64,000 nt of DNA, from positions 1-64,000 of the forward strand of contig NZ_JAKHEX010000007.1 of assembly GCF_023130475.1 (NCBI RefSeq), in the 5' to 3' direction. A model generated the notes under the pieces. The model ran no database searches. It saw nothing but the letters and a program-made list of their open reading frames with translations, and had not been told where the DNA came from. Every line of letters starts with the position of its first letter. Position 1 is the first letter of the stretch. Positions 46,213-60,921 of this stretch are shown here, one piece after another. The stretch is from Aciditerrimonas ferrireducens. GTDB lineage: Bacteria; Actinomycetota; Acidimicrobiia; Acidimicrobiales; UBA8190. The position numbers and the translations under genes were made by a program.

Positions 46213-47241
46213 TCAGGCGGGGCACCGGCCCTCGAAGAAGGCCCCGAAGTCCTTCGGGACCTCCGGGATGAGTCCGGCCGCCACCAGTCCTTCGGCCGCA
46301 CGCCGCATCTGGGCGTCGGTCAGCTTCATCGCCGGCGCTCGCACTGGGCCGCCGTTGTACCCCTGGAGCCAGGCCTGGAACTTCCAGAGGTAGCGGTGGT
46401 TGAAGTTCGCCCCCGCCGCCTGCGCTCGGAGCTGCTCCCGGGCGAGCCGGGCCGGCTGGATCGCCCAGTAACGGGCCAGCGCTTCCTCCCGTCGCCCGGC
46501 CCGTGCCAGCTCGAGGTACTCCGGCACGGTGGTCCCGTAGTACTCGTAGTTGCTCGTCCCCACCCAGGGGGTGCCGTAGAGCTCCTCCCACAAGAGCACG
46601 TTCGGCTCGTAGGGATCGCAGACCAGCAGTCCCCGGCCGGCCAAGGCCTCGAACGCCTGCCGACTGCCCACCACCCCCGGCTGTCCCACCTCGTACTTCG
46701 CCGCCACCACGTTCGGGACATCGGCCAGCTCGGTCCAGACCTCGATGGGGAACCCGCTGGGGTGCAGCCGGGCGAAGTTGTAGTGCGGGGCGCAGAACAG
46801 GATCACCGCCAGCTCGGTTCCCTCGCACAACGCCCGGGTGTAGGCCAGCAGCTCGGCAGTCGAACGGGGGTAGAAGCTGTTCGGGTAGGCCACCAGCAAG
46901 CCGTCCACCCCGATCGCCCGGGCGTCCCGGGCCACCGCCAGCGTCGTCTGCAAGGAGTCGAACGAGCCGTGCAGCACCGTGTAGTGCCGTCCTCGGCCCT
47001 CGTCGACGGCGATCTCCATGAACCGCCGCATCTCCGCCGGCGTCGTGCCGGCCTCCGAGACCAGCAGGGCTCCCCAGAACCCCAGCTCCATGTTCCGCCG
47101 GACGTCGTGACGAATGCCGGCCTCATTGAGTCCCCGGGCCCCCTCGGTGAACGAGGGGATGATCACGTTGCAGACTCCCCGCCACTCCTCCTGCGCCCAG
47201 GCCTTCATGTCGCTCGGCGCGACCTTCGCCCCCGCTGCCAT
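46213..47241 (-). CDS. DapA-family (class I aldolase/hydratase) enzyme, copy 1
   Basis: A 342-residue TIM-barrel protein of the DapA/NanA/NahE superfamily. Lys182 in VVAAKYEVG is the expected Schiff-base lysine. The superfamily GTTGE motif is GTTPAE here, and the strand that carries the catalytic Tyr (YNxP in DapA) reads LFCAPHYNFARL, so substrate binding differs from DapA. A C-terminal WLQGYNGGP segment is shared with the paralogue at 48287-49306 but not known to me elsewhere. It is last in the ten-gene operon. A retro-aldol or hydratase step on a ring-cleavage product is the best guess. Confidence 0.78.
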   Translation of the reverse strand: MAAGAKVAPSDMKAWAQEEWRGVCNVIIPSFTEGARGLNEAGIRHDVRRNMELGFWGALLVSEAGTTPAEMRRFMEIAVDEGRGRHYTVLHGSFDSLQTTLAVARDARAIGVDGLLVAYPNSFYPRSTAELLAYTRALCEGTELAVILFCAPHYNFARLHPSGFPIEVWTELADVPNVVAAKYEVGQPGVVGSRQAFEALAGRGLLVCDPYEPNVLLWEELYGTPWVGTSNYEYYGTTVPEYLELARAGRREEALARYWAIQPARLAREQLRAQAAGANFNHRYLWKFQAWLQGYNGGPVRAPAMKLTDAQMRRAAEGLVAAGLIPEVPKDFGAFFEGRCPA

Positions 47242-47281
47242 CGCTCTCCGTTCCTCCTCTCGTCCTGCCGTCCAAAGCAGC

Positions 47282-48265
47282 TCAGGCGTAGGGCTTCACT
47301 GCTGGGAACGCTCCGATCTCCTGCCCCAGGCCACCGGCCACCGCCAGGTGGTAGGCGCCGACGGCCACGGCGATGTCCTGCAGGGCGTTGCCCGAGGACT
47401 TGAACAGGGTCACCTGCCGCTCATCGGTCCGGCCGACCTGGCCTGCCTCGAGTTGCCAGAGCTCGGGCACTTCGGCGAGCCGGATCGCCCCGCTGGCCTC
47501 GGCGGAGCGCCCGTCACCGGACTGGCCGACGGTCCCCCGGTCGTCCACGACCACCAGGTCCGCCCGTCGCCAGCACTCGTCCTCGACCTCCCGGGCTTCG
47601 GCTCGCACCGAGCTCAGCCCGGTCACGTGGACGCCGGGCCGGAGCCAGGCGGCCCGGTAGACGGGCTCCCGGGGCGCCCGCATGGCCAGGACCGTCACCG
47701 GGCACGCCTCGGCAACCGCTTCCGCCGATCCGACGGCCTCGGCCCGCACACCCAGCTCTTGCCCGATCCAGGCTGCGAACGCTTCGCGGCTCTCCGCCCG
47801 AGGGCTGTGGACCACCACGTCCTCCAGTGGCCGGAGGTGCAGGTAGGCCTCCAGGAACGCTCGGGCCTGGACCCCCGCACCGATCACCCCTACCCGCCGT
47901 TCCTCCGCCGGGGCCAGCAGGTGGGTCCCGAGTGCCGACGTGGCCGCGGTCCGCCGCGTGGTGATCCAGTTCGCGTCCATGAGGGCCAGCAGCTCCCCCG
48001 TGGCGATCCGGTACAGACCCACCAGGTACCGCATGCCGATCCCCGCTGCCCGGTTCATGGCCTTGAAGCCCATGTAGCCCGAGCCGTTCAGGAACGCCTG
48101 GCTGATGCGGAGCCAGTTCTGCCCGTCTGCTGCGTCCGTCGTCTGCCGCGGCGGCATCTGCACCAGCCCTTGGGCCTGTTCCGCCAGCGCCTGGCGGAGC
48201 TCCTCGATGGACCGCCCCACGTCCAGCAGGGCGGTCATCTGCTTCTCGTCCAGGATCAGCGTCAT
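47282..48265 (-). CDS. ornithine cyclodeaminase / mu-crystallin family protein
   Basis: A 327-residue Rossmann-type enzyme of the OCD/mu-crystallin family. Substrate-side motifs are YMGFKAMNRAAGIGMRYLVG (lysine of the active site) and ELLALMDANWITTRRTAATSALGT; the NAD(P) loop is VGVIGAGVQARAFLEAY. The C-terminal FKSSGNALQDIAVA is a family hallmark. Members deaminate ornithine, reduce cyclic imines (ketimine reductase) or act as alanine dehydrogenases. Standing between two DapA-like genes of a dioxygenase operon, reduction of an imine or release of ammonia from a nitrogen-containing intermediate is plausible. Confidence 0.85.
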   Translation of the reverse strand: MTLILDEKQMTALLDVGRSIEELRQALAEQAQGLVQMPPRQTTDAADGQNWLRISQAFLNGSGYMGFKAMNRAAGIGMRYLVGLYRIATGELLALMDANWITTRRTAATSALGTHLLAPAEERRVGVIGAGVQARAFLEAYLHLRPLEDVVVHSPRAESREAFAAWIGQELGVRAEAVGSAEAVAEACPVTVLAMRAPREPVYRAAWLRPGVHVTGLSSVRAEAREVEDECWRRADLVVVDDRGTVGQSGDGRSAEASGAIRLAEVPELWQLEAGQVGRTDERQVTLFKSSGNALQDIAVAVGAYHLAVAGGLGQEIGAFPAVKPYA

Positions 48266-48286
48266 CCTCGCCTCTCTCGCACCGGT

Positions 48287-49306
48287 TCAGGCGGGGAAGC
48301 GCCCGGTAGCGAACCCGCTGTCGTCGCTCGGCACCTCGAACCCCGATGCCTCCACGCCGGCTCGCAGCATCCGCATCTGCCCTGGGTGCAGGCGCATCTG
48401 CGGCATCCGCAGCAACCCGCCGTTGTAGCCCTGCAGCCAGCCCAGGTACTTCCAGCCGACCCGGTGGATCAAGTTCGACCCGGCCCAGGTCTGGCTCCAC
48501 GCCCCCTTCGCCTCTCGTGCCGGCTGGTAGCTCCAGTAAAGCTCCATGCCCTCGTCCCACTTGCCCTCGTGCAGCAGCGAGAACCAGCGCGGCACCCGGT
48601 CGCCGAACGCCTCGTAGCCGCTCGTGCCCATCCACGGCATGCCGAACCACTCGATCAGGGCCGGCGCCGTGTGCTCCATCGGGCACTGCACCACGATCCG
48701 GTCCCCGCACCGGCGCAGGACGTCGGCTAGGCCAGCCACGATCCCCGGCGGGTTCGCCTCGTACTTCACCGCGGCTGCGGTGTCGATGTCGGCCATCTCG
48801 ACGATGGCCTCGTGGGGGAAGCTCTGCGGGGACATCGACCGATAGCCCCAGGTGGTCACGGCAAAAACGATCAGCGCCAGGTCCGTCCGTTCGGCCACGT
48901 CGCGGGTCCAGGCCACCACGTCACTGGGGGCCTTCGGCACGAAGGACGGCGGGTACGCCAGCAGACCGGCCTCCACCCCGATGGCCTCCGAGGCCTTGGC
49001 CACCTGGACCGTCTCCTCGAAGGTGGAGAAGCTCAGGTGCGCCACGATCCGGAAGCCCTCCGGCGCGGCGTCAGCTGCCACCTCCAGGAAGTGGAGGTAC
49101 TCCTCGAGGGTCGTCCCGCACTCCGAGGCCACCAGCGTGCCCCAGAAGCCCATCTGGGCTGCCAGGCGCACGTCGTGACGGATTGCCTCGTCGTTCAGAC
49201 CCCTGAAGTCGCTCGTGAAGCTCGGTAGGGTCACGTTGCACATGCCGCGCCAGGTGCGTGCCCGCTCCTTGGCCTCGCTCCTCGTGTAGGGAAGTGCCAC
49301 TTCCAT
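48287..49306 (-). CDS. DapA-family (class I aldolase/hydratase) enzyme, copy 2
   Basis: A paralogue of copy 1, 339 residues from the ATG at 49306. Shared landmarks are WRGMCNVTLPSFTSD, FRGLNDEAIRHDVR, ECGTTLEEYLHFLE (GTTGE changed to GTTLEE), Lys181 in AVKYEA and WLQGYNGGLLRMPQ. The catalytic Tyr strand reads IVFAVTTWGYRSM, again unlike DapA and unlike copy 1, so the two may act on different intermediates or form a hetero-oligomer. AGGAGG lies only two bases before the ATG; a GTG at 49300 has better spacing, and a GTG at 49363 would overlap the upstream stop. Confidence 0.78.
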   Translation of the reverse strand: MEVALPYTRSEAKERARTWRGMCNVTLPSFTSDFRGLNDEAIRHDVRLAAQMGFWGTLVASECGTTLEEYLHFLEVAADAAPEGFRIVAHLSFSTFEETVQVAKASEAIGVEAGLLAYPPSFVPKAPSDVVAWTRDVAERTDLALIVFAVTTWGYRSMSPQSFPHEAIVEMADIDTAAAVKYEANPPGIVAGLADVLRRCGDRIVVQCPMEHTAPALIEWFGMPWMGTSGYEAFGDRVPRWFSLLHEGKWDEGMELYWSYQPAREAKGAWSQTWAGSNLIHRVGWKYLGWLQGYNGGLLRMPQMRLHPGQMRMLRAGVEASGFEVPSDDSGFATGRFPA

Positions 49307-49359
49307 CTCCTCCTCGAATGGTTCGTCGCTTCCGTTCTCGGTCCCACCACCGCCAGCCG

Positions 49360-49959
49360 TCACGCCGCTCCCTCGGCGGCTCCCGACTTCGCCTCGAGCC
49401 GGGTCCGCGCCTCTTCGAGGCTCAGTCCCCCGAGCCGGGCATGGAGCCGCCCTCGGTTGGCCACGGCGGCGATGACCACCAGCTCGTCGGCAAGGGGCGC
49501 GTCGGGGACTCGGACCTCCACGGCGTCGTAGTGGCTCCGGACCCAGAGCTCGTCCTTGTAGGCCAGCGGGACGTCGATGGCGCAGCCGGGCCCGCCGACC
49601 TTCGTGGTCGAGGTGATCCAGGCCAGACCGCCTCCCACGGCCTTGCGGAACGCGTCGCCGAACGCCGAGGTGAGACACGCGTTGGCATGCTCCTGCTCGC
49701 CAGCGGTCCCGCAGATCGCGGCCTTGCCGTAGCTCTGGACCTCGTCGCCCAGGGCCTCACGGGCCAGCGTCCCGAGCTCCTCGCCGAGGGCCGCCGAGGG
49801 CTCGACCAGTGGCGAGAGGTCCTCCACGAATCCCTGCCCGGCCAGCGGATTGCTCACGACCGCCAGCGCCGCCACCTTCCGGAGCGGTCGCAGGCCGGGC
49901 CGGCCCGCCGCCAGCCTCACCTCCTCCACCACCAGCTGCACCTTTCGAATCGTCAGCAC
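49360..49959 (-). CDS. AA_synth (DUF1185) family protein
   Basis: A 199-residue protein matching my memory of the 'amino acid synthesis' family PF06684: YGKAAICGTAGEQEHANACL, AVGGGLAWITSTTKVG, PGCAIDVPLAYKDELWVRSHYD and a final ADELVVIAAVANRGR. No enzymatic role is firmly established, and the family name is not well supported. In this operon it is more likely a catabolic enzyme or accessory factor, since no amino acid biosynthesis gene is near. GGAAGGAGG precedes the GTG. Confidence 0.8.
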   Translation of the reverse strand: MLTIRKVQLVVEEVRLAAGRPGLRPLRKVAALAVVSNPLAGQGFVEDLSPLVEPSAALGEELGTLAREALGDEVQSYGKAAICGTAGEQEHANACLTSAFGDAFRKAVGGGLAWITSTTKVGGPGCAIDVPLAYKDELWVRSHYDAVEVRVPDAPLADELVVIAAVANRGRLHARLGGLSLEEARTRLEAKSGAAEGAA

Positions 49960-49984
49960 GTCTCGTTGCTCCTCCTTCCGCTCC

Positions 49985-50806
49985 TCAACCCACCCGTTCC
50001 TCGCCGACCCGGGGCGTCCTGTTCGCTTCGATCCGCTCGCCGCGCCCCCCGTCCGAGGGCACCACCGTGCCGGTCACCAGCGGGGACAAGGCCCGACTCA
50101 CCAGGTACAGGTAGGTCCCTGCGTGGTCCGCCGGACTGGCAGCCACGCCGAGCAAGGTCTGGGCGGCGATCCGCTCGTCCCGTTCCGGACCGTCGGCGAC
50201 CCGACCGTCTTGCCCCAGGCTCCGCAGCCCGACCAGCCGGGTCCGGGCCGTCCCCCCGGGGGCGACGCCGTTCACCCGGACCTCCGGGGCGAGCTCCCGG
50301 GCCAGGTGGGCCACGAGGCCACGCACCGCCCACTTGCTCGACCCGTAGAGCACGCCGCCACCCTCCGGCCACCTGGCCGAGCTGGAGACCGTCAGCACCA
50401 AAGACCCCCGGCTGGCCCGCAGGGCCTCGGCCGCGACCCGGGCCACGACCAAGCCGCTCAGGACGTTCACCCGGTAGATCTCCTCGAAGGCCTCGACCAG
50501 GTCGCTCGGCGAGAGCGAGCAGATCGGCTGGTAGAAGTCGAACCGTCCGGCACAGCAGACCACGCTGTCGAGCCGGCCCGCCGCCGCCTCCGCTCGTTCC
50601 ACCGCCTCGGCCACCACGCTCGGGGCGCAGGCGTCGCCCACCACCCGGTCCGCCAAAGGAAGGTCGCCGAGGCGCTCCCCGTCCAGGTCCAGGCCGACGA
50701 CCAAGGCACCCTCGGAGGCCAGTCGCTCGGCGACCGCCCGCCCGATGCCCGAACCGGCACCGACGACCAGCACGCCCTGCTCCGCCAGGAGTCCCGGTTC
50801 AGGCAA
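49985..50806 (-). CDS. short-chain dehydrogenase, probable cis-dihydrodiol dehydrogenase
   Basis: A 273-residue classical SDR. The cofactor loop is VLVVGAGSGIGRAVAERLA with Asp in GLDLDGERL favouring NAD+; the NAG equivalent is CCAGRFD, serine is in TVSSSARW and the YxxxK is YGSSK. Coupled to a Rieske dioxygenase, it would oxidise the cis-dihydrodiol to a catechol-type product. The TTG at 50806 is chosen: AGGAGGGAGG lies 5 bases upstream and the start overlaps the small upstream gene by 8 bases. Confidence 0.83.
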   Translation of the reverse strand: MPEPGLLAEQGVLVVGAGSGIGRAVAERLASEGALVVGLDLDGERLGDLPLADRVVGDACAPSVVAEAVERAEAAAGRLDSVVCCAGRFDFYQPICSLSPSDLVEAFEEIYRVNVLSGLVVARVAAEALRASRGSLVLTVSSSARWPEGGGVLYGSSKWAVRGLVAHLARELAPEVRVNGVAPGGTARTRLVGLRSLGQDGRVADGPERDERIAAQTLLGVAASPADHAGTYLYLVSRALSPLVTGTVVPSDGGRGERIEANRTPRVGEERVG

Positions 50807-51107
50807 CCCAGCCTCCCTCCTCGTCGTCCTCAGGCAACCGGCCACCTGTCGGGTCGGTCGGCCCGAAGGGCTCCTCGAGGAGATCGGAGAACAGCGCCGG
50901 CGTCTGCCACGTCAGGGCCTCGAGCTCCAAGGCGTCGAGCAGGATCCGCCGGCCCAGCCGGGGCGCGAAGACCTCGAGCCGGACACCGTTGCGGGTGGGG
51001 ACCCGCCGGACGAGCACCTCGGCGAACTCGTTGGCCACGATCACCGGCGTGGTCGGGGCCGCCGACCACGCCACCGGCTCCGCTTGCCGTCTCCCCTCCG
51101 GGGTCAT
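50799..51107 (-). CDS. small protein of dioxygenase operons ('dihydrodiol dehydrogenase'-labelled type)
   Basis: A 102-residue protein between the dioxygenase beta gene and the SDR, overlapping the former by 4 bases. Its core VIVANEFAEVLVRRVPTRNG, RLEVFAPRLGRRILLDALEL and LTWQTPALFSDLLEEPFGP recalls short actinobacterial proteins that databases call 'dihydrodiol dehydrogenase'. It has no nucleotide-binding fold, so that name is doubtful. It may be a small accessory subunit of the oxygenase. The ATG is set by the ATGA overlap. Confidence 0.7.
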   Translation of the reverse strand: MTPEGRRQAEPVAWSAAPTTPVIVANEFAEVLVRRVPTRNGVRLEVFAPRLGRRILLDALELEALTWQTPALFSDLLEEPFGPTDPTGGRLPEDDEEGGWVA

Positions 51108-51640
51108 AGCAGCACCGAAAGGCTGTTCCCGGTCAGGTTGGCCTGGTCCACCACCAGGATCCGCCGACGGATCCGGAAATCGTCGCCTTCCTCGACCAGC
51201 TCGTCCATCCGATCCGCCGAGTAGAGGTCGGCCCGGGGATCCTCCCCCCGGTTGCGGTAGACGAGAAGGTTGCACCGGGCCTGGATGACCCCATCGGCCC
51301 GCCAGGTCCGCACGTTGGTCACGAAGTGCCGCGTGCGCGACGGTGGCTGCTCGGCCCACGCGAAGTCCGAGCAGAGGCGCTGCACCCGCACCCCCAGGGT
51401 CTGCTTGGAGTCCCAGAAGATCCTCCCGGTCGGGGACAGCTCCGAGTCGACCTGCCGCTCCCGGGTGATTCGCAGGGGCGCTTCGTAGCTGGCGTCCTCG
51501 CAGAACAGCGCCAGCCACTCCTCGAATCGCCGCTCGTCGAGCAACTGAGCCTCCCGGAAGAGGAACTGCTCGACACGCCGCGCCAGCTCGACCGGCAACC
51601 GCTCCTGATCGAGTGCCTCGCTCGCACCGTTGCTCGTCAT
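51104..51640 (-). CDS. aromatic-ring-hydroxylating dioxygenase, beta subunit
   Basis: A 178-residue beta subunit with the SnoaL-like cone fold: VEQFLFREAQLLDERRFEEWLALFCEDASYEAPL at the start (helix then first strand) and RIRRRILVVDQANLTGNSLSVLL at the end. Such subunits are structural and can influence specificity. It overlaps the alpha gene and the small downstream gene by 4 bases each. Confidence 0.9.
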   Translation of the reverse strand: MTSNGASEALDQERLPVELARRVEQFLFREAQLLDERRFEEWLALFCEDASYEAPLRITRERQVDSELSPTGRIFWDSKQTLGVRVQRLCSDFAWAEQPPSRTRHFVTNVRTWRADGVIQARCNLLVYRNRGEDPRADLYSADRMDELVEEGDDFRIRRRILVVDQANLTGNSLSVLL

Positions 51641-52947
51641 GGCCGCTCCAGGTACTCGAGCCAGGTCTGCCACATGTTCCGGAAGTTCGTCTCCGTCATG
51701 TACGGGGTGACGGCCACTCCCGGACCAGGGAAGTCCGCGATCGGTTCACGGTCCAACCCCATCAGGTACGGGAAGGACAGCTCCTGGGCGGCAGGGTTGC
51801 CGGCCATCGCCGTCACCCGACTCCAGTTGTCGAAGTCGTCCTGCTCGAACATCCCGCCGTGCCCGAACGCCAGGGTGTAGGCCCGGTAGGCCTCCGCCTT
51901 GTAGGCCTCCGGGGCATCTTTCGGCACGAGACACCACGAGAGCATCTGCATCCGCCCGACCCCGATGGGCTGCCACAGGCGCATGGTGCAGAACCGCACC
52001 CCGGGCTCTCCAGGGGTCGCGCTGAAGGGCTGGATCAGCAGCGAGAGGTTGGGGAAGACGGTGCTGACCGCCGTCCTGGTCTCCTTGAACAACTCCAGCT
52101 GCGCGGGGCTGAGCGCCTCGGCCATTCCCTGCACGACCTCGTCCGGGTAGCCGAAGAACGGGGTCATGCCCGGGGTCCGGCCCAAGCCGATGCCGTGGCC
52201 TCGGTGGGGGAAGTGGACGGCGTAGCCCTGCGAGTGGGTGGACGCCGAGGACGCGTAGTAGCCGAGTTGGAAGCCGAACTGGTGGGCGACCGGGGTGTGG
52301 TAGCCGTCACCGGCGAAGTTCTCCGCACAGATCTTCCAATCCGTCTCCGTCACCCACTGGTTCGGGGGCGCGTAGACCTCCGTTCCCCCTGGTCCCGGCC
52401 GCAGATAGATGTCGAGGTAGAACTGGAAGCCTCCGAGGTACTCCTCCAAATCCGGAGCGCCGGGGTCGAGGCACCCGAAGACCAGCCCCTGGTAGCTGTC
52501 GGTTCGGACCTCCAGGAGGTTCCAGTCGGATCGTCGCAGTCGACCGTCGTAGACCGTTCGGATGTGGGGCACCCCGATCAGCCGACCGTCGTTGGCGTAG
52601 GTCCAGCCGTGGTAGGAGCACCGGAAGTGCGAGGCGTTGCCCATGGCCGCCTTGCACACCTGGTTCCCGCGGTGTCGGCACATGTTCAACAGGCACCGGA
52701 CCGTCCCCTGCTCATCGCGCACCACGATGACCGAGTTCCCGGCAAGGTTGCGCAGCACGTAGTCGCCCGGTTCGGGGATCTCACTGTCATGGGCCAGGAA
52801 CAACCATGCCCGTCGGAACAGGCGCTCCTGCTCTGCCGCGAACACCGCCGGGGAGTTGAAGATCTCGACCGGCAGCCGGCCCTCGGCCAGCTCCTTGCGG
52901 ACCCGATCCAGCACCTCTTCGACGCTGGTCAGCTCGGCTCCTCTCAT
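51637..52947 (-). CDS. Rieske-type aromatic-ring-hydroxylating dioxygenase, alpha subunit
   Basis: A 436-residue catalytic subunit. The Rieske [2Fe-2S] site is Cys90-x-His92 (NMCRHRGN) and Cys110-x2-His113 (CSYHGW). The mononuclear iron site is His217 and His222 in GDGYHTPVAH, with the bridging Asp214 two residues before His217's Tyr; the third carboxylate probably lies in EQDDFDNW. The enzyme should add both atoms of O2 to an aromatic ring to give a cis-dihydrodiol. No ferredoxin or reductase gene is in the window, so electrons must come from elsewhere. GAGGAGGGG precedes the ATG. The substrate is unknown. Confidence 0.93.
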   Translation of the reverse strand: MRGAELTSVEEVLDRVRKELAEGRLPVEIFNSPAVFAAEQERLFRRAWLFLAHDSEIPEPGDYVLRNLAGNSVIVVRDEQGTVRCLLNMCRHRGNQVCKAAMGNASHFRCSYHGWTYANDGRLIGVPHIRTVYDGRLRRSDWNLLEVRTDSYQGLVFGCLDPGAPDLEEYLGGFQFYLDIYLRPGPGGTEVYAPPNQWVTETDWKICAENFAGDGYHTPVAHQFGFQLGYYASSASTHSQGYAVHFPHRGHGIGLGRTPGMTPFFGYPDEVVQGMAEALSPAQLELFKETRTAVSTVFPNLSLLIQPFSATPGEPGVRFCTMRLWQPIGVGRMQMLSWCLVPKDAPEAYKAEAYRAYTLAFGHGGMFEQDDFDNWSRVTAMAGNPAAQELSFPYLMGLDREPIADFPGPGVAVTPYMTETNFRNMWQTWLEYLERP

Positions 52948-53816
52948 CGCCCCTCCTCCTCCGACTCGCCCCCTGGCTTTCTGGCCGCCACGACGGCCGT
53001 GCCGGTCAGCCACGCTGGCACCGGCCGGTAGGCCAGGACCTCCCATCGCCAGCCGGCCAGGGCCGCCCCGGCCACGACCCACGCCCGGATTTCCGCCGCG
53101 CCGTTGCCCGCCTCGGCCAGCCGCGCCTCGGAGAGCTTGGCCAGCTGCGCCACGTCTCCCTTCTCCAGCAGGCCGAGGACGAGCTCGTCGAAGGCCTGGT
53201 CGATCTCACCGGCCCGGGGGAGACCGACCCAGTGTGAGAGCCCCCCGCTGGCGACCACCGCGACCCGCGCCGCTGCCTCCTGGGCGCCAATGATCTCCCC
53301 AAGAGCACGACCCAGGGCGGCGCAGCGGGCCAGGCTGGGCATGGGAGCCTGGACGGCGTTCACCACCACCGGCACGACCGGCACGGGATCTGCCGGGTCG
53401 ACCAGCAGGGACAGCGGCACCGCGAACGCCTCGTCGAACCCGTAGCCGCCGCCGACCAGCGCCGGATCGAAGCCCTGCGCCAAGAGTCCCTCGGCCAAGG
53501 CCCTACCTAAGGCCGCCTGCCCCGGATACCCCCGACGAGGCACCTGAAGGAACCGTTCGAATCCCTCGCTGGCCGGACAGGCGTACTCCTCGGCCATCCC
53601 CACGGCCACCGTCGGGAGGTTCGCCGGCGAGAAGTTCGTGAAGTGCTCCGAGGAGACCATCACCAGGGCATCCGGTCGGGCAGCTCGAATACGCCCGGCC
53701 ATGTCCTCGAAGGCGCCGAGGACGGCCTGGCGGTCGGCTGCCGGAGCCCGCTCCGGGAAGCCGGTCAGACCGGGCGAGTGCGAGACACAGGCCCCGGCCA
53801 CCAGGTGGCCGGTCAT
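52944..53816 (-). CDS. extradiol dioxygenase, class III, catalytic (LigB) subunit
   Basis: A 290-residue LigB-fold enzyme. Metal ligands expected for the class are His13 in CVSHSPGL and His58 in SSEHFTNF; the second-shell His is in GGLSHWVG. It would open a catechol-type ring next to the diol using Fe(II). It pairs with the downstream-overlapping small LigA-like gene, as in protocatechuate 4,5-dioxygenase and gallate-type enzymes. Together with the Rieske enzyme and the SDR it makes a dihydroxylation, rearomatisation and cleavage series. Confidence 0.87.
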   Translation of the reverse strand: MTGHLVAGACVSHSPGLTGFPERAPAADRQAVLGAFEDMAGRIRAARPDALVMVSSEHFTNFSPANLPTVAVGMAEEYACPASEGFERFLQVPRRGYPGQAALGRALAEGLLAQGFDPALVGGGYGFDEAFAVPLSLLVDPADPVPVVPVVVNAVQAPMPSLARCAALGRALGEIIGAQEAAARVAVVASGGLSHWVGLPRAGEIDQAFDELVLGLLEKGDVAQLAKLSEARLAEAGNGAAEIRAWVVAGAALAGWRWEVLAYRPVPAWLTGTAVVAARKPGGESEEEGR

Positions 53817-54082
53817 CGCCCGACCCCGCTGGCTCGGCCCAGTCGGGCGTAGTAGTCCTCCCGGGACATCCCCATCTCGATCATGCTGAGGTACAACAGC
53901 AGCGGGTTCACGCCAAGCTCGAGGAGACGGTCCACGGCCCCCTCGGCCAGGGCCTGGGCAGCGTTCGGGTCCACGCCTCGGGCGCAGGCCACCGCAACCG
54001 GCCGTTCCCGCAGGGATCGGGCGAGCGCAGGGTCGCGTCGGGCTTCGAACAGGAGCTGCTCCAGGGCGAAGCACCCGGACAT
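53813..54082 (-). CDS. extradiol dioxygenase, class III, small (LigA) subunit
   Basis: An 89-residue all-helical LigA-type subunit: SLRERPVAVACARGVDPNAAQALAEG and NPLLLYLSMIEMGMSREDYYARL split over helices. It caps the active site of the LigB partner and is first in the operon. The ATG at 54082 has GGGGAGG 8 bases upstream and is followed by a 4-base overlap with ligB. Its upstream region is the shared control region with the divergent transporter operon. Confidence 0.82.
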   Translation of the reverse strand: MSGCFALEQLLFEARRDPALARSLRERPVAVACARGVDPNAAQALAEGAVDRLLELGVNPLLLYLSMIEMGMSREDYYARLGRASGVGR

Positions 54083-54167: not shown

Positions 54168-54185
54168 CCCAAACGGGTACATTCG
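54168..54185 (+). promoter_or_regulatory. 18-bp operator-like element, copy 1
   Basis: CCCAAACGGGTACATTCG, matching copy 2 in 17 of 18 bases. The centre-to-centre distance is 63 bp, six turns of B-DNA. Contains TACATT, which could also act as a -10 box. Confidence 0.65.
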
Positions 54186-54230
54186 CCCGGCTGGAGGCCA
54201 GCGGCCCCCGGCCATCAGGCGAGCCTGTCC

Positions 54231-54248
54231 CCCGAACGGGTACATTCG
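54231..54248 (+). promoter_or_regulatory. 18-bp operator-like element, copy 2
   Basis: CCCGAACGGGTACATTCG. It contains the imperfect inverted repeat CGAA-N8-TTCG. Located 88 bases before the transporter start and 149 bases before ligA. Confidence 0.65.
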
Positions 54249-54300
54249 TTCCTCCCCTCTGGCCTCGGCGTCGCTCTTCGTTCATCCTTCGCTCAAGGAC

Positions 54301-54314
54301 GACCTCGCGAGGTC
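54301..54314. promoter_or_regulatory. perfect 14-bp palindrome before the transporter operon
   Basis: GACCTCGCGAGGTC is fully self-complementary and ends one base before the GGAGG-rich ribosome-binding region of the substrate-binding protein gene. Candidate operator or RNA hairpin masking translation. Confidence 0.55.
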
Positions 54315-54335
54315 GGGAGGAGGGGAGGAACAACC

Positions 54336-55439
54336 GTGCGTCTCCGGTTCACTCGGCGCCACACCAGCCGTCGCCGTTCCAAGACCGCGGGCCTCGTGCT
54401 CGCTGCCGTGGCCCTCGGGGCCGCGGCGTGCAGCTCGTCGAGCAGCTCCAGCTCGACCAAGCCAGCGGCCAGCACGGCCCACCAGGGCTACACCATCGGC
54501 TTCTCCAACCCACAGGGAACCCAGCCGGTGCTCGACACCTTCCAGCAGGCCTTGACCGAGGCGGCCAAGCGGCAGGGCATCACCGTGACCTCGCTCAATG
54601 CGGCCCTCTCCGTTTCCAATCAGGTCTCCGACATCCAGCAGTTCATCAACGAGAAGGTCAAGGCCATCGTGGTCTTCCCCCTGGCCGGCCCGCCGCTCGT
54701 GCCCGTCCTCACCGCTGCCCGCAAGGCCGGCATCGTCGTGCTGGGGTACAACGCGGTGACCTCGACGAGCCCGATCACCTCGGCGCAGCAGCTCTACCCC
54801 TACAACGCCGACATCAACCAGGGCCTCATCCACGAAGGGGCCAAGCTGGCCGCCCAGTTCGTGGCCAAGGCTCTCGGGGGCAAGGGCAACGTGCTCGGGG
54901 TCGACATCGCTGCCCCGGTGCCGTCGCTCCACGCCTTCATGCACGCCGAGGAGGCCGACGTCACCGCCGCCAGCTCCGGCATCCACTGGCTCGAGACGGT
55001 CCACGACCAGACCGACGACATCGCTGGCGCAGCAGGCCCGGTCGCTGACGCCCTCACGAAGTACCACGACAACGTCCAAGCGGTCATGGCCTACTTCGAC
55101 GGTGCCGCCGAGGGCGCCGCCCAAGCCCTGAAGGCCGCCGGCGTCCACGCTGTGGTGGTCGGCCAGCAGGGCAACGCCGACGGCATCGCAGCCATCCGGT
55201 CCGGCGAGATGGACGCCACCATCAACGAGCTGCCTTACGAGCAGGCCCTCATCGCCCTCAAGATGGTCGAGGACCTCGTGGCCGGCAAGAGCGTCCCCCC
55301 CGTCGTCCACCCGCCGGTCCAGCTCGTCACCAAGGCGAACCTCTCCAGCTACGTCCCCTGGAGCACCGGCCTCAAGGAGGTGGCCGACGGCACCCTCACC
55401 CCGCCAGCTACCCTGAGCGCCAACCCGACCGTCGGCTGA
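54336..55439 (+). CDS. ABC transporter substrate-binding lipoprotein (ribose/sugar type, Peripla_BP_4)
   Basis: A 367-residue lipoprotein with signal helix GLVLAAVALGAAACSSS (lipobox GAAAC) and a Ser-rich linker. The binding domain starts YTIGFSNPQGTQPVLDTFQQ and shows NAALSVSNQVSDIQQFINE, VVVGQQGNADGIAAIRSG and INELPYEQALIALK, all typical of ribose-type receptors. In catabolic settings this receptor class can bind non-sugar ligands. First gene of a five-gene operon divergent from the dioxygenase operon. GGAGG sites precede the GTG. Confidence 0.88.
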   Translation: MRLRFTRRHTSRRRSKTAGLVLAAVALGAAACSSSSSSSSTKPAASTAHQGYTIGFSNPQGTQPVLDTFQQALTEAAKRQGITVTSLNAALSVSNQVSDIQQFINEKVKAIVVFPLAGPPLVPVLTAARKAGIVVLGYNAVTSTSPITSAQQLYPYNADINQGLIHEGAKLAAQFVAKALGGKGNVLGVDIAAPVPSLHAFMHAEEADVTAASSGIHWLETVHDQTDDIAGAAGPVADALTKYHDNVQAVMAYFDGAAEGAAQALKAAGVHAVVVGQQGNADGIAAIRSGEMDATINELPYEQALIALKMVEDLVAGKSVPPVVHPPVQLVTKANLSSYVPWSTGLKEVADGTLTPPATLSANPTVG

Positions 55440-55441
55440 GG

Positions 55442-57019
55442 GTGAGCCTGGTGGCACCCCGCCGCCATCCCACGGAGCACATTGCCGATCGCTCCGGGCC
55501 GAGCCTTCATCCCGTGCCGGTCCTCGAGGCTCGCCAGGTCGTCCGTCGATTCGGCAAGGTCACGGTCCTGCGGGGCGTGGACTTCGTCCTCCATGCCGGC
55601 GAGGTCCACGCCCTGGCGGGGGCCAACGGCTCGGGCAAGTCCACCCTGGTGCGCATCCTCTCCGGGGCGCTGCGGCCCTCGGAGGGCACTGTCGTCGTCG
55701 GGGGCGCCCCGGTCCGCCTCCGCTCGCCCCACGACGGCCTGCACCTCGGCATCGCCACCGTGCCCCAGGAGCTCCCTCTGGTACCCAGCCTGAGCATCGC
55801 CGAGAACCTCTTCCTCGGTGCCCTCCCCCGCCGCCGGGGTGTCGTGACCTGGCGAGAGCTGCGTCGACGGGCGCTCGACGCGCTTCGGTCCGTCGACCCC
55901 GAAGGCCGCCTCGCCCCTGACCGGCCGGTCGCCGAGCTCGACCTGGCCGATCGCCAGCTCGTCGCCATCGCCCGAGCCCTGCTCCACGGCGCCCGGGTCC
56001 TGCTCTTCGACGAACCCACCAGCGCCCTGCCCGGCCCCGCGGCCAACCGGCTCCTCGAGCTCATCCGCCTGCTCCGATCCGAAGGCCGCGCCATTGCCCT
56101 CGTCAGCCAGCGGCTCGACGACATCACCGCCGTCGCCGACCGGGTCTCGGTCCTGCGCGACGGGTGCATGGTGGCCGAGCTCCCCGGCGACCAGGCCCGG
56201 GCCGCCACCCTGGCCGAGCTCATGGTCGGCCACCCCGTCCACGCGCACCACACCCCGGTCCGTACGAGAGGAGCGGGGGAGCTCCTCTCGGTCGAGGACC
56301 TCGACCCCGCCGGTCGAGGGATCCCCATCTCCTTCGGTGTCCGTCCCGGCGAGCTCCTCGGCCTCGCCGGCCTCCCCGGCTCGGGCGTCGACGAGCTCCT
56401 CGCCTCGCTGGCCGGGCGGCGCAAGGCCGCCGCCGGCCGGATCCGGCTGGCCGGCCGGGACCTGACCGGCCTCGGCGTCGTCCGTCGAGCCCGCCTCGGC
56501 GTCGCCTACGTCTCCGGCGACCGTCGCCGAGAGGGGATCGTCCCGAACGCCACCGTGGCCGAGAACCTCACCCTGGCCCTGACCAGCCGGGCCAGCCTCC
56601 GGCCCCTCCGGCGGGCTTCCCTCGTCGAGCGGGTGGCCGGTGTCCTCCGGGATCTCGACGTCAAGCCCAACGATCCCACCGCTCTGGCCGGCACCCTCTC
56701 GGGCGGCAACCAGCAGAAGCTCGTCGTGGGTCGCTGGCTCCTCGCCGGGGCCCGGCTGTGGCTCCTCGCCGACCCCACCCGGGGCGTCGACGTCCATGCC
56801 CGGGCGGACATCCACCGCCTGCTGCGACACCAGGTCGCCGAAGGCGGTGCCGCCGTCATGACCTCCTCAGAGCTGGCCGAGCTCCTCGAGGTCTGCGACC
56901 GCATCCTGGTCGTCCACCGGGGTGCGCTCGTCGCCGAGGTCGATCCTGCGCAGACCAGCGAACACGACCTGCTGGCGCTGGTCGGGGGTGCCGAGCCTGC
57001 CAGGGAAAGGAGCCAGTGA
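55442..57019 (+). CDS. ABC transporter ATPase with two nucleotide-binding domains (RbsA/MglA type)
   Basis: A 525-residue double ATPase. Domain 1 has Walker A GANGSGKST and Walker B VLLFDEPTSAL, but its signature is LDLADRQ instead of LSxxQ. Domain 2 has a canonical LSGGNQQK signature, but its Walker A is lost (GLPGSGVDE) and its Walker B reads LLADPTRG, with Asp-Glu changed to Ala-Asp. Thus one composite ATP site is complete and the other is degenerate in all three elements, an extreme form of the asymmetry known in this family. It starts 3 bases after the receptor stop and overlaps the permease by one base. Confidence 0.9.
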   Translation: MSLVAPRRHPTEHIADRSGPSLHPVPVLEARQVVRRFGKVTVLRGVDFVLHAGEVHALAGANGSGKSTLVRILSGALRPSEGTVVVGGAPVRLRSPHDGLHLGIATVPQELPLVPSLSIAENLFLGALPRRRGVVTWRELRRRALDALRSVDPEGRLAPDRPVAELDLADRQLVAIARALLHGARVLLFDEPTSALPGPAANRLLELIRLLRSEGRAIALVSQRLDDITAVADRVSVLRDGCMVAELPGDQARAATLAELMVGHPVHAHHTPVRTRGAGELLSVEDLDPAGRGIPISFGVRPGELLGLAGLPGSGVDELLASLAGRRKAAAGRIRLAGRDLTGLGVVRRARLGVAYVSGDRRREGIVPNATVAENLTLALTSRASLRPLRRASLVERVAGVLRDLDVKPNDPTALAGTLSGGNQQKLVVGRWLLAGARLWLLADPTRGVDVHARADIHRLLRHQVAEGGAAVMTSSELAELLEVCDRILVVHRGALVAEVDPAQTSEHDLLALVGGAEPARERSQ

Positions 57020-58062
57020 TGTCCCTCCCCGACACCGCCCGCCAGGACCTCGTCGGTCCCACGCACCCGACCCCGACCGAAACCCCCCGTTCGGGCCTCC
57101 GGCACCACCTGCGCCGCGGCCACCAGCATGTCCGCGGCTACCTCGGGGCCCTGCTCGCCCTCGCCGTGCTCGTCGTCGTCCTCGTTGCCACCGAACCCAC
57201 CTTCCTCACCACCGGCAACCTCAAGAACGTCCTGGTCACCAACAGCTCGCTCTTCATCGTCTCGGTCGGCATGACCTTCGTCCTGCTCTCCGCCGGTTTC
57301 GACCTCTCGGTCGGCGCCATCATGGCCGGGGCCGAAGAGGTCCTCTATCTCCTGCTCCACGCCGGTGTCCCCGCCCCTCTCGCCATCGTCGTCGTCCTCC
57401 TCGGGGGGTTCCTCCTCGGCGCTGGCCTGAACGGTCTCCTCATCGGCGTGGCCGGCCTCAACTTCTTCGTCGTGACCCTCGGCAGCATGACCCTCCTCTA
57501 CGGGGTCGTCGACGTGGTGACGAACGGTGCCAGCCAGACCATCAGCTCCTCGGTCCTGGCCCACCTGGGCAACGGCACCGTCCTCGGCGTCCCGGCCCCG
57601 GTCGTCGTCCTCGTCGTCGTCATCGTCCTCGGTGGCCTCGTCCTGCGCTGGACGCCCTACGGTCGTGCGGTCTACGCCACCGGTGGCAACCGGGAGGCGG
57701 CACGCCTCGCCGGCATCCGGGTCCCCCTGGTCGTCATGAGCGTCTACGGCATTGCCGGTCTGTGCGCCGCCCTGGCCGGGGTGGTCGAGGCCGGGCGGCT
57801 GGCGTCCGCCACCCCGACCGCCGGGTCCTCCATCGCCCTCATCAGCGGCGCCGCGGTCCTCCTCGGGGGCACCAGCCTCTTCGGCGGTGTCGGTGGCTTG
57901 ACCGGCACCGTGGTCGGCGTCTTGGTCATCGCCGTCCTGGGCAACGCCGTCAACCTGCTCGGCGTCTCCAACTTCTGGCAGGACGTCGTCACCGGGGCGG
58001 TCCTCCTCGGCGCCATCCTCCTCGACCGCCTGCAGAAACGTGGCCAACCTTCCGGCCACTGA
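57019..58062 (+). CDS. ABC transporter permease (RbsC type)
   Basis: A 347-residue membrane protein with about nine helices. Family segments are TTGNLKNVLVTNSSLFIVSVGMTFVLL-like sequence, SAGFDLSVGAIMA, NFFVVTLGSMTLLYG, YGRAVYATGGNREAARLAGI and the late GGTSLFGGVGGLTGTVVG. Only one permease is encoded, so it probably forms a homodimer. The ATG at 57019 has AAAGGAG six bases upstream. Its 3' end overlaps the ThDP enzyme by 23 bases. Confidence 0.9.
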   Translation: MSLPDTARQDLVGPTHPTPTETPRSGLRHHLRRGHQHVRGYLGALLALAVLVVVLVATEPTFLTTGNLKNVLVTNSSLFIVSVGMTFVLLSAGFDLSVGAIMAGAEEVLYLLLHAGVPAPLAIVVVLLGGFLLGAGLNGLLIGVAGLNFFVVTLGSMTLLYGVVDVVTNGASQTISSSVLAHLGNGTVLGVPAPVVVLVVVIVLGGLVLRWTPYGRAVYATGGNREAARLAGIRVPLVVMSVYGIAGLCAALAGVVEAGRLASATPTAGSSIALISGAAVLLGGTSLFGGVGGLTGTVVGVLVIAVLGNAVNLLGVSNFWQDVVTGAVLLGAILLDRLQKRGQPSGH

Positions 58063-59728
58063 GCACGCCGGGCGACCCGAGCGCCGGGTGCGCGAGGCCC
58101 TCGCCGACGCCTTCGTGGCCGAGGGGCTCACCACCGTCTTCGGCCTCATGGGCGACGGCACCAAGCGCTGGATGCTCGACATGGCCGCTCGGGGGGCTCG
58201 CGTGGTCCAGGTCCGCCACGAAGGGGCCGGCTGCGCCATGGCGGACGGAGCTGCCCGGGCCACCGGCCAGCCGGTGCTCTGCGCCGTCACCTACGGCCCG
58301 GGGGTCAGTCAGCTCAGCACCGCGCTCCTCGTGGCCGCCAAGCACCGCACGCCCCTCGTGGTCTTCGCAGCGGACGTCCCGACCCACCAGCGAGACCGCA
58401 AGGGCCAGCTCGACGTCTCGACCCGGCAGCTGCTCGAGGCAGCCCAGACCGAGGTCCACGAAGTCCTTCCCGGCCAGGACCCCATGGGCCTCGTCCGACG
58501 GGCCGTCGGCCGGGCCCGTTGCCACGGCCGCCCGGTGGCCGTCCTCGCCGGCCCCGAGGTCCAAGAGCTCCCCGCTCCCCCGCCCACCGGACTCCGCCGG
58601 CCCCCACTCGACCCGCCGGTCGCCCTCCCCCACCCCGAAGTCGTCGCCCAGGCCGCGCAGCGCCTGACGTCCGCTTCCCGACCCGTCCTTCTGGCCGGGG
58701 CCGGCGCCGCCCGGGCCGGCGCTGGCCACGCCCTCGTGGCCCTGGCCGACCGCCTCGGCGCCCGCCTGGCCACGAGCTTCGGCGCCAAGGGCCTCTTCGA
58801 CCCCCATCCGGCCAACCTCGGGCTGGCCGGCGGCTTCGCCCTGCCAGCGACCAAGGAGGCTCTCGCCCGCGCCGATCTGCTCCTCGCGGTCGGGGCCAGC
58901 CTGAACTTCCACACCACCGACCAAGGCCAGGCCTTCCCTCGCGCCCGGGTCCTCCTGGTCGATCAGCGCCCCGACGCCGCCCTGGAGGCCACCGTCCCCC
59001 TCGACGCCTTCCTCCTCGGGGACGCCCGGCTCGTCACCGAGCAGCTCCTCGCGGCGCTCCCGGATCGTCCCTCGCCCGCTGGCCCCTGGCAGAGCGGCGT
59101 CCCGGTGGTCGACGCCTCGGGCGACCTCCGCCGGGAAGCGCTCCGCCGATCTCCCCAGGCCCTCGAGCCGCACCGCTTGGACCCCCGGGTCCTCATGCTG
59201 GCCCTCGACGAAGTCCTGCCCGAGGACGCCCTCGTCGTCGTCGGCGGCGGCCACCACATGGGGTTCGCTGCCCAATACCTCACGAACCGCAGCGGGCGCC
59301 GGCAGTTCCTCATGGCCTTCGACTTCATGACCACCGGTCAGGCCGTCCCCACGGCCATCGGCGTCGCCCTCGCTCGCCCCGAGCGGCCGGTGGTGGCCAT
59401 CGAGGGCGACGCCAGCTTCCTCATGCACGTCCAGGAGCTCGAGACCGCGGCCCGGATCGGGGCCCGCCTCCTCGTGGTGGTCATCGACGACCAAGCCCTC
59501 GGCGCCGAGGTGCACGCCCTCGAGGCCGAGGGCCTCGACCCGACCCTCGCGCTCGTCCCCACGCCCGACCTGGCCCGCCTGGCCGAGGCCCTCGGCGGCC
59601 GGGGCCGGCGCATCGACGACCTGACCCAGGTCGCCAGCCTCCCCGGCTGGTTCGACCCGACCCACAGCCCCCCCGTGCCCCACGTCGTCGACTGCCTGGT
59701 CTCCCGCCGGGTGGTCGGACCGGGCTGA
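58040..59728 (+). CDS. ThDP-dependent enzyme (acetolactate synthase / benzoylformate decarboxylase-like)
   Basis: A 562-residue three-domain ThDP enzyme. The cofactor-activating Glu is in VRHEGAGCAMADGAAR, the central domain contains RPVLLAGAGAARAGAG, and the ThDP/Mg region is IEGDASFLMHVQELETA...VVVIDDQALG. In that motif the usual GDG and NN are GDA and DD, a notable change for Mg2+ binding. It may decarboxylate or condense a 2-oxo acid. It follows the importer genes in the same operon, so it probably acts on the imported compound or on a product of its breakdown. Confidence 0.8.
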   Translation: MANLPATEHAGRPERRVREALADAFVAEGLTTVFGLMGDGTKRWMLDMAARGARVVQVRHEGAGCAMADGAARATGQPVLCAVTYGPGVSQLSTALLVAAKHRTPLVVFAADVPTHQRDRKGQLDVSTRQLLEAAQTEVHEVLPGQDPMGLVRRAVGRARCHGRPVAVLAGPEVQELPAPPPTGLRRPPLDPPVALPHPEVVAQAAQRLTSASRPVLLAGAGAARAGAGHALVALADRLGARLATSFGAKGLFDPHPANLGLAGGFALPATKEALARADLLLAVGASLNFHTTDQGQAFPRARVLLVDQRPDAALEATVPLDAFLLGDARLVTEQLLAALPDRPSPAGPWQSGVPVVDASGDLRREALRRSPQALEPHRLDPRVLMLALDEVLPEDALVVVGGGHHMGFAAQYLTNRSGRRQFLMAFDFMTTGQAVPTAIGVALARPERPVVAIEGDASFLMHVQELETAARIGARLLVVVIDDQALGAEVHALEAEGLDPTLALVPTPDLARLAEALGGRGRRIDDLTQVASLPGWFDPTHSPPVPHVVDCLVSRRVVGPG

Positions 59729-59751
59729 TCCCGAGAAAGGAGCGCTCGACC

Positions 59752-60921
59752 GTGAGCATCGCCGTCGTCCGCATCGGTTCGTCCCACATCGGGGACCTCG
59801 CCGGCACCCCCCTCGACGGGGACGCCCTCGTCCTCGAGGACGAGCGCATCGCCTGGGTCGGGACCAGCGAGGAGGTCCGGCCCGCCGACCACCGTCTCGT
59901 CGTCGACGCCGCCGGGGCCGGGGTCGTCCCGGGCTTCATCGATTCCCACGTCCACGTGACCTTCGGCGACTACACCCCCCGCCAGCAGACCGTCGGCTTC
60001 CTCGAGAGCTACCTCCACGGCGGCATGACCCGGGCCATCTCGGCCAGCGAGGTCCACGTCCCGGGCCGTCCCACCGACCCCGCCGGGGTCAAGGCCCTCG
60101 CGGTGGCGGCCGAGCGCTGCTTCCGCTCCTACCGGCCCGGGGGGGTCACCGTCCATGCCGGTTCGGTCATCTTGGAGCCAGGCCTTACCGAGGCCGACTT
60201 CGTCGAGCTCCGCCAGGCCGGCGTCTGGCTCGCCAAGGCTGGTTTCGGCGCCTTCCCCGACCCCATGGGCTACGTCCCCGTCGTCCAGGCGGCCCGCCGG
60301 GCAGGCCTGGTCGTCATGTGCCACACCGGTGGCGGGTCCATCCCGGGCAGCCAGCGGGCCATCGGCGCGGAGGCCCTCTTGGCGATGCAACCGAACATCG
60401 CCGGTCACGTCAACGGCGGGCCCACGGCCATGAGCGACGAGGACAACCAGCGGGTGGTCCTCGAAGGAGGCGACATGGCCCTCCAGCTCGTCCAAGCCGG
60501 CAACCTCCGCTCGGCCATCGACATCGCCCGCCTGGCCCTCGAGCACCACCAGGAGCACCGTCTGCTGCTCGCCAGCGACACCCCCACCGGCACCGGCATG
60601 ATCCCCCTGGCGCTCCTCCGGACCATGGCCGAACTGGTCTCCCTCGGGCCCCTCAGCCCCGAGCTGGCCCTCGCCGCGGTGACCGGCTCCGTGGCCCGGG
60701 TCTACGACCTGCCCGCCGGCCGCCTGGCGCTCGGGGCTCCCGCCGACCTGCTGGTCCTCGACGCGCCGGTCGGGTCCGTGGCGAAGGACTGGAAGGGTGC
60801 CCTCCGACTCGGGGACCTCCCGGCGGTCGCCGTGGCCCTGACCGCCGGGGAGCTCCGGTTCACCCGGAGCCGCAACACGCCCCCGCCCAGCCGGCCGGTC
60901 ACGGTCGTCCACCCGGCCTGA
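59752..60921 (+). CDS. amidohydrolase, enamidase-like
   Basis: A 389-residue metal-dependent amidohydrolase. Metal ligands are His66 and His68 in IDSHVHVTFG, a His in VVMCHTGGGSIPGS, a His in IAGHVNGGPTAMSDE and the Asp in LLASDTPTGTGMIPL. The segments SIPGS, HVNGGPTA, SDTPTGTGMIPL, GSVAKD and the near-terminal SRNTPP closely follow what I recall of enamidase from nicotinate-fermenting Eubacterium barkeri, which hydrolyses 6-oxo-tetrahydronicotinate to formylglutarate and ammonia. This match is from memory, not from an alignment. It would fit cleavage of a cyclic amide in this operon. AAAGGAG precedes the GTG. Confidence 0.8.
   Translation: MSIAVVRIGSSHIGDLAGTPLDGDALVLEDERIAWVGTSEEVRPADHRLVVDAAGAGVVPGFIDSHVHVTFGDYTPRQQTVGFLESYLHGGMTRAISASEVHVPGRPTDPAGVKALAVAAERCFRSYRPGGVTVHAGSVILEPGLTEADFVELRQAGVWLAKAGFGAFPDPMGYVPVVQAARRAGLVVMCHTGGGSIPGSQRAIGAEALLAMQPNIAGHVNGGPTAMSDEDNQRVVLEGGDMALQLVQAGNLRSAIDIARLALEHHQEHRLLLASDTPTGTGMIPLALLRTMAELVSLGPLSPELALAAVTGSVARVYDLPAGRLALGAPADLLVLDAPVGSVAKDWKGALRLGDLPAVAVALTAGELRFTRSRNTPPPSRPVTVVHPA

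Follow-up and report, generated by a model that had tools for sequence, protein, structure and literature searches.

Several described catabolic systems share parts with the locus analyzed here, a cluster of genes at positions 46213-60921 of a stretch of 64,000 nucleotides from the Aciditerrimonas ferrireducens contig NZ_JAKHEX010000007.1 (referred to as the window). On plasmid pROB02 of Rhodococcus opacus B4, the genes that we take to be nar (encoding NarAa/NarAb, NarB and NarC), the database record giving family names only, have the order Rieske alpha subunit, beta subunit, small protein and dihydrodiol dehydrogenase that is also present in the window, and the pROB02 alpha subunit is 43% identical to that of the window and located near it in the tree. 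The nar system has an aldolase of the NahE/NarC type, whereas the window instead contains LigAB, a DUF1185 protein, an enamidase, an OCD-family enzyme and two DapA proteins of another subfamily. The pht genes (phthalate 3,4-dioxygenase) of Arthrobacter keyseri plasmid pRE1 share with the window the Rieske alpha and beta subunits and the same small protein, but their alpha subunit is more distant, and no LigAB, DapA, DUF1185 or enamidase gene is present in the stretch of pRE1 that was read. The hca and mhp systems of Escherichia coli have a dioxygenase, a dihydrodiol dehydrogenase and a class III extradiol enzyme as the window does, and mhp uses the hydrolase MhpC, the hydratase MhpD and the aldolase MhpE. 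A classical mhp/hca lower pathway was rejected for the window, which has no MhpC- or MhpD-like gene.

Other likenesses concern the nitrogen side. The reductive nicotinate pathway of Eubacterium barkeri shares the enamidase family, and in its relatives a DUF1185 gene lies beside or near the enamidase gene; unlike that pathway, the window has no detectable 6-hydroxynicotinate reductase, UPF0280 protein or nicotinate hydroxylase. The lum pathway of Nocardioides simplex shares the logic of attacking a benzo-fused N-heterocycle with Rieske, extradiol and thiamine diphosphate (ThDP) enzymes, but its gene set is different (PMC12746152, 2025). A DUF1185 protein, HcdD, is encoded in the 7-hydroxycoumarin operon of Pseudomonas mandelii 7HK4, and that publication names HcdD and TgnF (trigonelline breakdown) as DUF1185 relatives and reports no measurable effect of HcdD; its HcdE and the cupin HcdF have no counterpart by family in the window cluster (PMC7913881). 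The earlier reading of the window from its letters alone (the sequence-only reading) knew of no described pathway with this gene set, and none was found in the open literature searched, although an older or subscription-only description is possible. Since every enzyme family in the set is known, as is the nar-type module, the set does not amount to something categorically new.

We tentatively read the cluster as one catabolic system for a compound in which a cyclic amide is combined with a benzene ring; the most likely candidate is a benzo-fused lactam of the 2-quinolone or isoquinolone kind. We give this reading slightly less than an even chance. All fifteen genes that the sequence-only reading had assigned to two divergent operons are present, and the families it named are right. 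Ten genes are on the minus strand (from the LigA-like gene ending at 54082 to the DapA-like gene at 46213) and five on the plus strand (54336-60921). The features, including the regulatory gene and the sites discussed below, are as follows.

44992-46131, plus strand: GAF-LuxR transcriptional regulator, the probable regulator of the system (Pfam GAF and GerE)
46213-47241, minus strand: DapA2, Schiff-base lyase of the DapA/NAL family (PF00701)
47282-48265, minus strand: OCD/mu-crystallin family enzyme, of the imine reductase or cyclodeaminase type (PF02423, 4.6e-46)
48287-49306, minus strand: DapA1, Schiff-base lyase of the DapA/NAL family (PF00701)
49360-49959, minus strand: AA_synth/DUF1185 protein (PF06684, 5.3e-65)
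49985-50806, minus strand: short-chain dehydrogenase/reductase (SDR) of the cis-dihydrodiol dehydrogenase type (NCBIfam PRK06200/HcaB/BphB_TodD, 1.4e-71)
50799-51107, minus strand: 102-residue accessory protein of Rieske operons of the nar/pht type (homologues immediately following Rieske beta)
51104-51640, minus strand: Rieske dioxygenase beta subunit, Ring_hydroxyl_B (PF00866, 1.2e-37)
51637-52947, minus strand: Rieske dioxygenase alpha subunit, nar-like (PF00355 and PF00848, Rieske and Ring_hydroxyl_A)
52944-53816, minus strand: catalytic subunit of a LigB-type class III extradiol dioxygenase (PF02900, 4.4e-37)
53813-54082, minus strand: LigA-type small subunit of 89 residues (position and homology)
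54170-54184, no strand: motif CAAACGGGTACATTC in the divergent promoter region, probable operator (exact genome-wide match)
54233-54247, no strand: motif CGAACGGGTACATTC, second copy of the 15-base motif (exact genome-wide match)
54336-55439, plus strand: lipoprotein-like substrate-binding protein of a ribose-type (CUT2) ATP-binding cassette (ABC) importer (PF13407, Peripla_BP_4, 7.5e-36)
55442-57019, plus strand: importer ATPase with two ATPase domains (PF00005, two stretches)
57019-58062, plus strand: importer permease, BPD_transp_2 (PF02653)
58040-59728, plus strand: ThDP-dependent enzyme of the 2-oxo acid decarboxylase/lyase type, one chain of 562 residues (three TPP_enzyme domains)
59752-60921, plus strand: enamidase-family amidohydrolase, a probable cyclic enamide hydrolase (PDB 2VUN, 1.1e-103)

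Neighbouring genes within each operon are separated by -23 to 53 bases (that is, they overlap by at most 23), and therefore each operon is very likely one transcript. The 23-base overlap is that between the permease gene and the ThDP enzyme gene, and the start of the latter could be a later GTG, at 58088 or 58115. The cluster is located well inside a contig of 100,761 bases, which makes a binning artefact less likely.

Genome contigs were scanned with the DapA family, which resulted in 79 loci. One of them, L013 (SKS5.bin46), contains in a single direction ligA, ligB, Rieske alpha, Rieske beta, the 102-residue protein, SDR, DUF1185, enamidase, DapA1, OCD, DapA2, substrate-binding protein, ATPase and permease, followed by an aldehyde dehydrogenase gene and a gene for a homologous LuxR regulator. 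These pieces are found again in loci L072 and L011 (both from YF2.bin68; this and SKS5.bin46 are other actinobacterial metagenome-assembled genomes), and a similar set is present in L012; in the window, the parts are divided between two divergent operons. Since these genes are co-directional and in the same order in L013, and L072 and L011 agree, the importer, the enamidase and the ring-cleavage genes belong together as one system. Gene content and order recur in independent genomes, and are therefore far beyond chance. The substrate-binding protein has a relative (42-45%) after the operon in L011/L013, and ThDP enzymes are encoded in L017, L134 and the Rhodococcus USK13 region, with L017 again combining the ThDP enzyme, the enamidase and DapA1.

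The gene at 44992-46131 also belongs to the system, because a homologous LuxR gene adjoins the same cluster in L013/L011 (55-57% identity); further homologues lie beside the clusters of USK13 (39%) and of the complete genome G023 (41%). Across the 2.65-Mb genome, the 15-base motif CRAACGGGTACWTTC is matched exactly at only two places, which both lie between the divergent operons; the number expected in the window is 0.05. Its core CGAACGGGTAC is also present upstream of ligA in L013 and L072. The GAF-LuxR regulator probably controls both operons by binding to these repeated CRAACGGGTACWTTC sites. The shared gene order and a motif unique to the divergent promoter bear out the single uptake-and-degradation system that had been proposed from sequence. 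The gene set is rarely found: DapA1 is absent from every one of the other 297 genomes sampled from the order, ten of which belong to the same family, and a query of 396 sampled genomes of the phylum returned only remote relatives in other contexts.

The first part of the putative pathway is supported by family and conserved context. The nearest solved structure to the Rieske alpha subunit is Rhodococcus naphthalene dioxygenase (PDB 2b1x, 4.4e-114). In the tree, a single clade (support 100/100) unites this subunit with its counterparts in Thermomicrobium roseum, Rhodococcus USK13, L013 and L072. The neighbours of this clade are a Thermus enzyme and the pROB02 protein of the NarAa type, followed by PhtAa, with HcaE and NdoB further out. 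The complete genomes G023 and G226 (Thermomicrobium), whose alpha subunits are 63% identical, have ligA, ligB, a NahE/NarC-type aldolase gene and the genes for Rieske alpha and beta, the small protein and SDR lined up one after another. LigB, the Rieske dioxygenase and the small protein are common to five clusters besides that of the window (L013, L072, USK13, G023 and G226). The T. roseum cluster shares the Rieske dioxygenase, the small protein, SDR, DUF1185 and enamidase with the window, and no LigB was detected in it. NahE/NarC-type aldolases are present in T. roseum, USK13, G023 and G226, with identities of 37-64% among these and the reference enzymes; this enzyme type (NahE, NarC and PhdJ) is known from fused-ring substrates, which favours a fused-ring compound here too. 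In its place, the window and L013 carry DapA1 and DapA2. The best-scoring models for SDR are dihydrodiol dehydrogenases (PRK06200, HcaB and BphB_TodD).

Assignment of the ring-cleavage enzyme to class III is based on the presence of both the LigB domain (PF02900) and a gene for a small alpha subunit; the nearest PDB entries to LigB are MhpB and LigB, and the deep branches of the LigB tree are weakly resolved. The 89-residue LigA-like protein has no family match of its own in the family search and was identified by its 41% identity to the protein in the same position in L013 and by its equivalent in L138, which matches PF07746. Likewise, neither Pfam nor NCBIfam has a family for the 102-residue protein, and its structure model (pLDDT 64) is too poor for a structure search. 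Its relatives directly follow Rieske beta in the Rhodococcus nar-type, Arthrobacter pht, Thermus and Thermomicrobium (T. roseum) clusters, from which its predicted role follows: it is a regular accessory of this operon type, conserved in the actinobacterial ones and not peculiar to this locus.

Some neighbours of related clusters are worth recording. An alpha/beta hydrolase gene adjoins LigA/LigB in L138 (12176-13324) and L092 (5828-6979), and may encode a C-C hydrolase for the ring-cleavage product; the closest PDB entry to the alpha/beta hydrolase of G023 is 2,6-dihydroxypseudooxynicotine hydrolase (2JBW, 1.5e-26). Near the sister clusters of USK13 and G023, a gene of the haem-containing aldoxime dehydratase family is present (L101, 20893-21963; L148, 10286-11314, with PF13816 in L148), accompanied by GAF-LuxR regulators; the window has no such aldoxime dehydratase gene.

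The two DapA proteins, whose matches to the DHDPS family are weak (E 6.5e-8 and 6.3e-7), had been regarded as one pair. A tree of 50 relatives separates them into different clades with different gene company. The DapA1 clade has seven members, all of which except L016 adjoin an enamidase gene or, in the window, share the system with one, and a DUF1185 gene was detected in all six enamidase-associated loci except L012. The DapA2 clade has 15 members, of which L018, L019, L027, L028 and L032 adjoin LigB. Because one clade associates with LigB and the other with enamidase, we infer that the ring-cleavage product is handled by DapA2, whereas DapA1 acts in the heterocycle branch. The Schiff-base lysine is conserved in both proteins (K181 of DapA1 is invariant), and the AlphaFold model of DapA1 (pLDDT 94) has the (beta/alpha)8 DapA fold with this lysine. 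Foldseek ranked PhdJ first for DapA1, at a sequence identity of 15%, but tied with many DHDPS and NAL structures, and the reaction of DapA1 therefore cannot be read from the modelled fold. An identity of either protein with NahE/NarC was rejected by sequence, as NarC and NahE gave only partial matches of 23-28%.

An OCD gene adjoins that of DapA at 44 of the 52 loci of close DapA relatives, many of which contain ordinary aromatic genes and no enamidase. OCD seems therefore to be a general partner of this DapA family, and nitrogen removal by OCD, as the sequence-only reading had it, is not specifically indicated. Such OCD-DapA pairs lie beside aromatic catabolic genes in both Actinomycetota and Pseudomonadota (L090, L091, L094, L095, L096 and L011-L053), with an aldehyde dehydrogenase gene in several. 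For the combination of DapA, OCD and aldehyde dehydrogenase, a role like that of LhpC, LhpI and KGSADH in hydroxyproline metabolism is a further candidate.

The amidohydrolase is a member of the enamidase family proper. Its match to 2VUN, the crystallised E. barkeri enamidase, extends over residues 5-383, and the metal-site and substrate motifs HxH, E, HTGG, HxNGGPTA and DxPxGTG are shared. The DUF1185 protein scores 218.6 bits against PF06684, for which the gathering cut-off is 27. Besides that of the window, 13 of the 396 genomes of the phylum sample contain an enamidase (E < 1e-60), and at 12 of the 14 sampled enamidase loci a DUF1185 gene lies directly beside the enamidase gene on the same strand. 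Two of these loci (L141 and L142) contain complete nicotinate sets with molybdenum hydroxylase (XDH), 6-hydroxynicotinate reductase and UPF0280. Sulfitobacter likewise has a nicotinate set with enamidase and DUF1185, and a Comamonadaceae plasmid has a nicotinate-type set with DUF1185 nearby on the opposite strand and no hydroxylase in the stretch read. Hydantoinase-like amidohydrolase or isochorismatase-type hydrolase genes, together with DUF1989-like genes, are present near the enamidase gene in L135, L143 and L144 (the Pfam run covered L144 and part of L135); L134 contains a molybdenum hydroxylase, a FAD monooxygenase and a ThDP enzyme; and another sampled locus is the Rieske/LigAB cluster of G023. 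Also, two nicotinate-type clusters with 6-hydroxynicotinate reductase (L100, 1887-3052; L102, 4427-5691) contain two tandem DUF1185 paralogues and a UPF0280 gene.

Inside the Rieske operons of T. roseum and G226 there is a molybdenum hydroxylase, the two being 51% identical. In the phylum sample, close LigB relatives (48-50%) were restricted to two genomes, each of which also has an enamidase (hypergeometric p 0.001). With nicotinate, hydantoinase-type and molybdenum hydroxylase genes as its neighbours, enamidase suggests that the substrate or an intermediate contains a cyclic amide. The nitrogen-containing aromatic substrate that had been considered probable is supported in this indirect way, through the contexts of enamidase and DUF1185 and the molybdenum hydroxylases of the G226 and T. 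roseum sister clusters.

The substrate is best read as a benzo-fused or aryl-bearing cyclic amide (quinolone-like), and a quinolone-type benzo-fused lactam fits all parts of the following scheme. In the sister clusters, the lactam would be made from the heterocycle by the molybdenum hydroxylase. The CUT2 importer would take up the compound, the Rieske dioxygenase with its 102-residue accessory would form a cis-dihydrodiol on the benzo ring, SDR would rearomatise this to a catechol, and LigAB would cleave the catechol in meta position; family and context argue for each of these steps. DapA2 may then release pyruvate by Schiff-base retro-aldol chemistry. The previously proposed order of import, dihydroxylation, rearomatisation, extradiol cleavage and aldolase is supported. 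In a second module, DUF1185 and enamidase may split the cyclic enamide that is left, releasing its nitrogen; the resulting oxo acid may be cleaved or decarboxylated by DapA1 and the ThDP enzyme, and OCD would probably reduce or hydrolyse an imine arising on the way. The pieces would enter central metabolism.

Several observations weigh against the lactam reading. OCD and DapA also occur in clusters without any sign of nitrogen chemistry, and CUT2 importers are known for sugars and not for heterocycles. The NahE/NarC-type hydratase-aldolase had no hit of its own in the window. The window cluster contains neither ferredoxin nor ferredoxin reductase, which the USK13 and G023 clusters have, and no molybdenum hydroxylase, and these enzymes would have to be supplied by genes outside it; the family search of the genome found ferredoxin families elsewhere, and molybdenum hydroxylase genes are likewise present elsewhere, the best being 45% identical to that of T. 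roseum. In addition, the window enamidase clusters in the tree with Nonomuraea, Streptosporangium and Cryobacterium (100/99) and apart from the enzymes encoded within the operons of T. roseum, USK13, L012, L013 and L072. Most simply, the enamidase gene inside the operon was lost in the window lineage, which retains one of different origin in the importer operon. The enamidase step would then be needed, because two different enamidases are kept in the same pathway.

Finally, relatives of enamidase might act on enol lactones instead, and this leads to the alternative that survives best, although we consider it unlikely: the substrate has no ring nitrogen, and the enamidase-like enzyme, helped by DUF1185, hydrolyses an enol lactone or 2-pyrone after LigAB, as LumW acts after LumE in lumichrome degradation. 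In lumichrome degradation, extradiol cleavage is followed by formation of a pyrone, which is opened by a 40-kDa cobalt hydrolase (PMC12746152), HcdD belongs to an operon for a coumarin, a lactone (PMC7913881), and many DapA/OCD clusters show no other nitrogen enzyme. Against it, enamidase relatives keep company with nicotinate, hydantoinase-type and molybdenum hydroxylase genes, and molybdenum hydroxylases lie inside the sister Rieske clusters. The fused-ring NahE/NarC-type aldolase and the molybdenum hydroxylase of sister clusters speak against a less likely alternative, in which a monocyclic arylalkylamine or aryl amino acid is degraded: once the ring is cleaved, the amine would react with the ketone so formed to give a pyrroline or piperideine, OCD would reduce the imine and DapA would remove a 2-oxo acid. 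This would agree with the action of OCD-family enzymes on cyclic ketimines (the nearest NCBIfam models include pyrroline- and piperideine-carboxylate reductases) and with the frequent OCD-DapA adjacency (44 of 52 loci), but leaves the enamidase-DUF1185 pair unexplained.

We consider it improbable that the two operons are unrelated neighbours, an aromatic ring-cleavage operon beside an importer, ThDP enzyme and amidohydrolase for another compound. Independent inheritance, which the sequence-only reading had named as a refutation, finds some support in the enamidase, as that of the window is of another lineage than the in-operon enzyme of L013/L072, and the L013 stretch has no gene for the ThDP enzyme. 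However, in both of these the block is found together with importer, regulator and an enamidase, enamidase and importer genes being co-directional with the ring-cleavage genes in L013, with L011 and L072 in agreement; the motif between the operons is unique, and L017 again combines ThDP enzyme, enamidase and DapA1. It is very improbable that the system is a variant of the riboflavin/lumichrome pathway in which CUT2 imports riboflavin, and this reading was rejected, because, although that pathway is similar in outline and also combines XDH, Rieske, extradiol and ThDP enzymes, the window cluster has no P450, pyrimidine-ring hydrolases, two-subunit ThDP decarboxylase or XDH, and DapA, OCD, DUF1185 and enamidase are not described in it (PMC12746152).

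Outside the cluster, the window contains a minus-strand open reading frame weakly similar to MhpE aldolase (15083-16117, E 5.6e-5); a gene of the GDP-mannose 4,6-dehydratase family close to a group-1 glycosyltransferase gene (27113-30263), which suggests a surface polysaccharide locus; and an open reading frame of 568 residues (62260-63966) whose SCO1/SenC domain is only C-terminal (residues 404-534), so that its true start may be downstream.

Should the lactam reading hold, the locus provides a concrete gene set for the breakdown of benzo-fused N-heterocycles; to our knowledge, no genes have been assigned to routes that attack these compounds from the benzo ring first. With clearly less confidence, we suggest that the locus may be a member of an undescribed modular pathway family attacking benzo-fused N-heterocycles from the benzo side, in which DUF1185 and enamidase would form a general unit for opening lactams, DUF1185 being its missing second component. 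If true, such a role would account for a family whose annotation still reads 'amino acid synthesis', and the presence of DUF1185 beside 12 of the 14 sampled enamidase genes makes its function testable. The role of the widespread OCD-DapA pair in aromatic clusters of Actinomycetota and Pseudomonadota likewise becomes testable.

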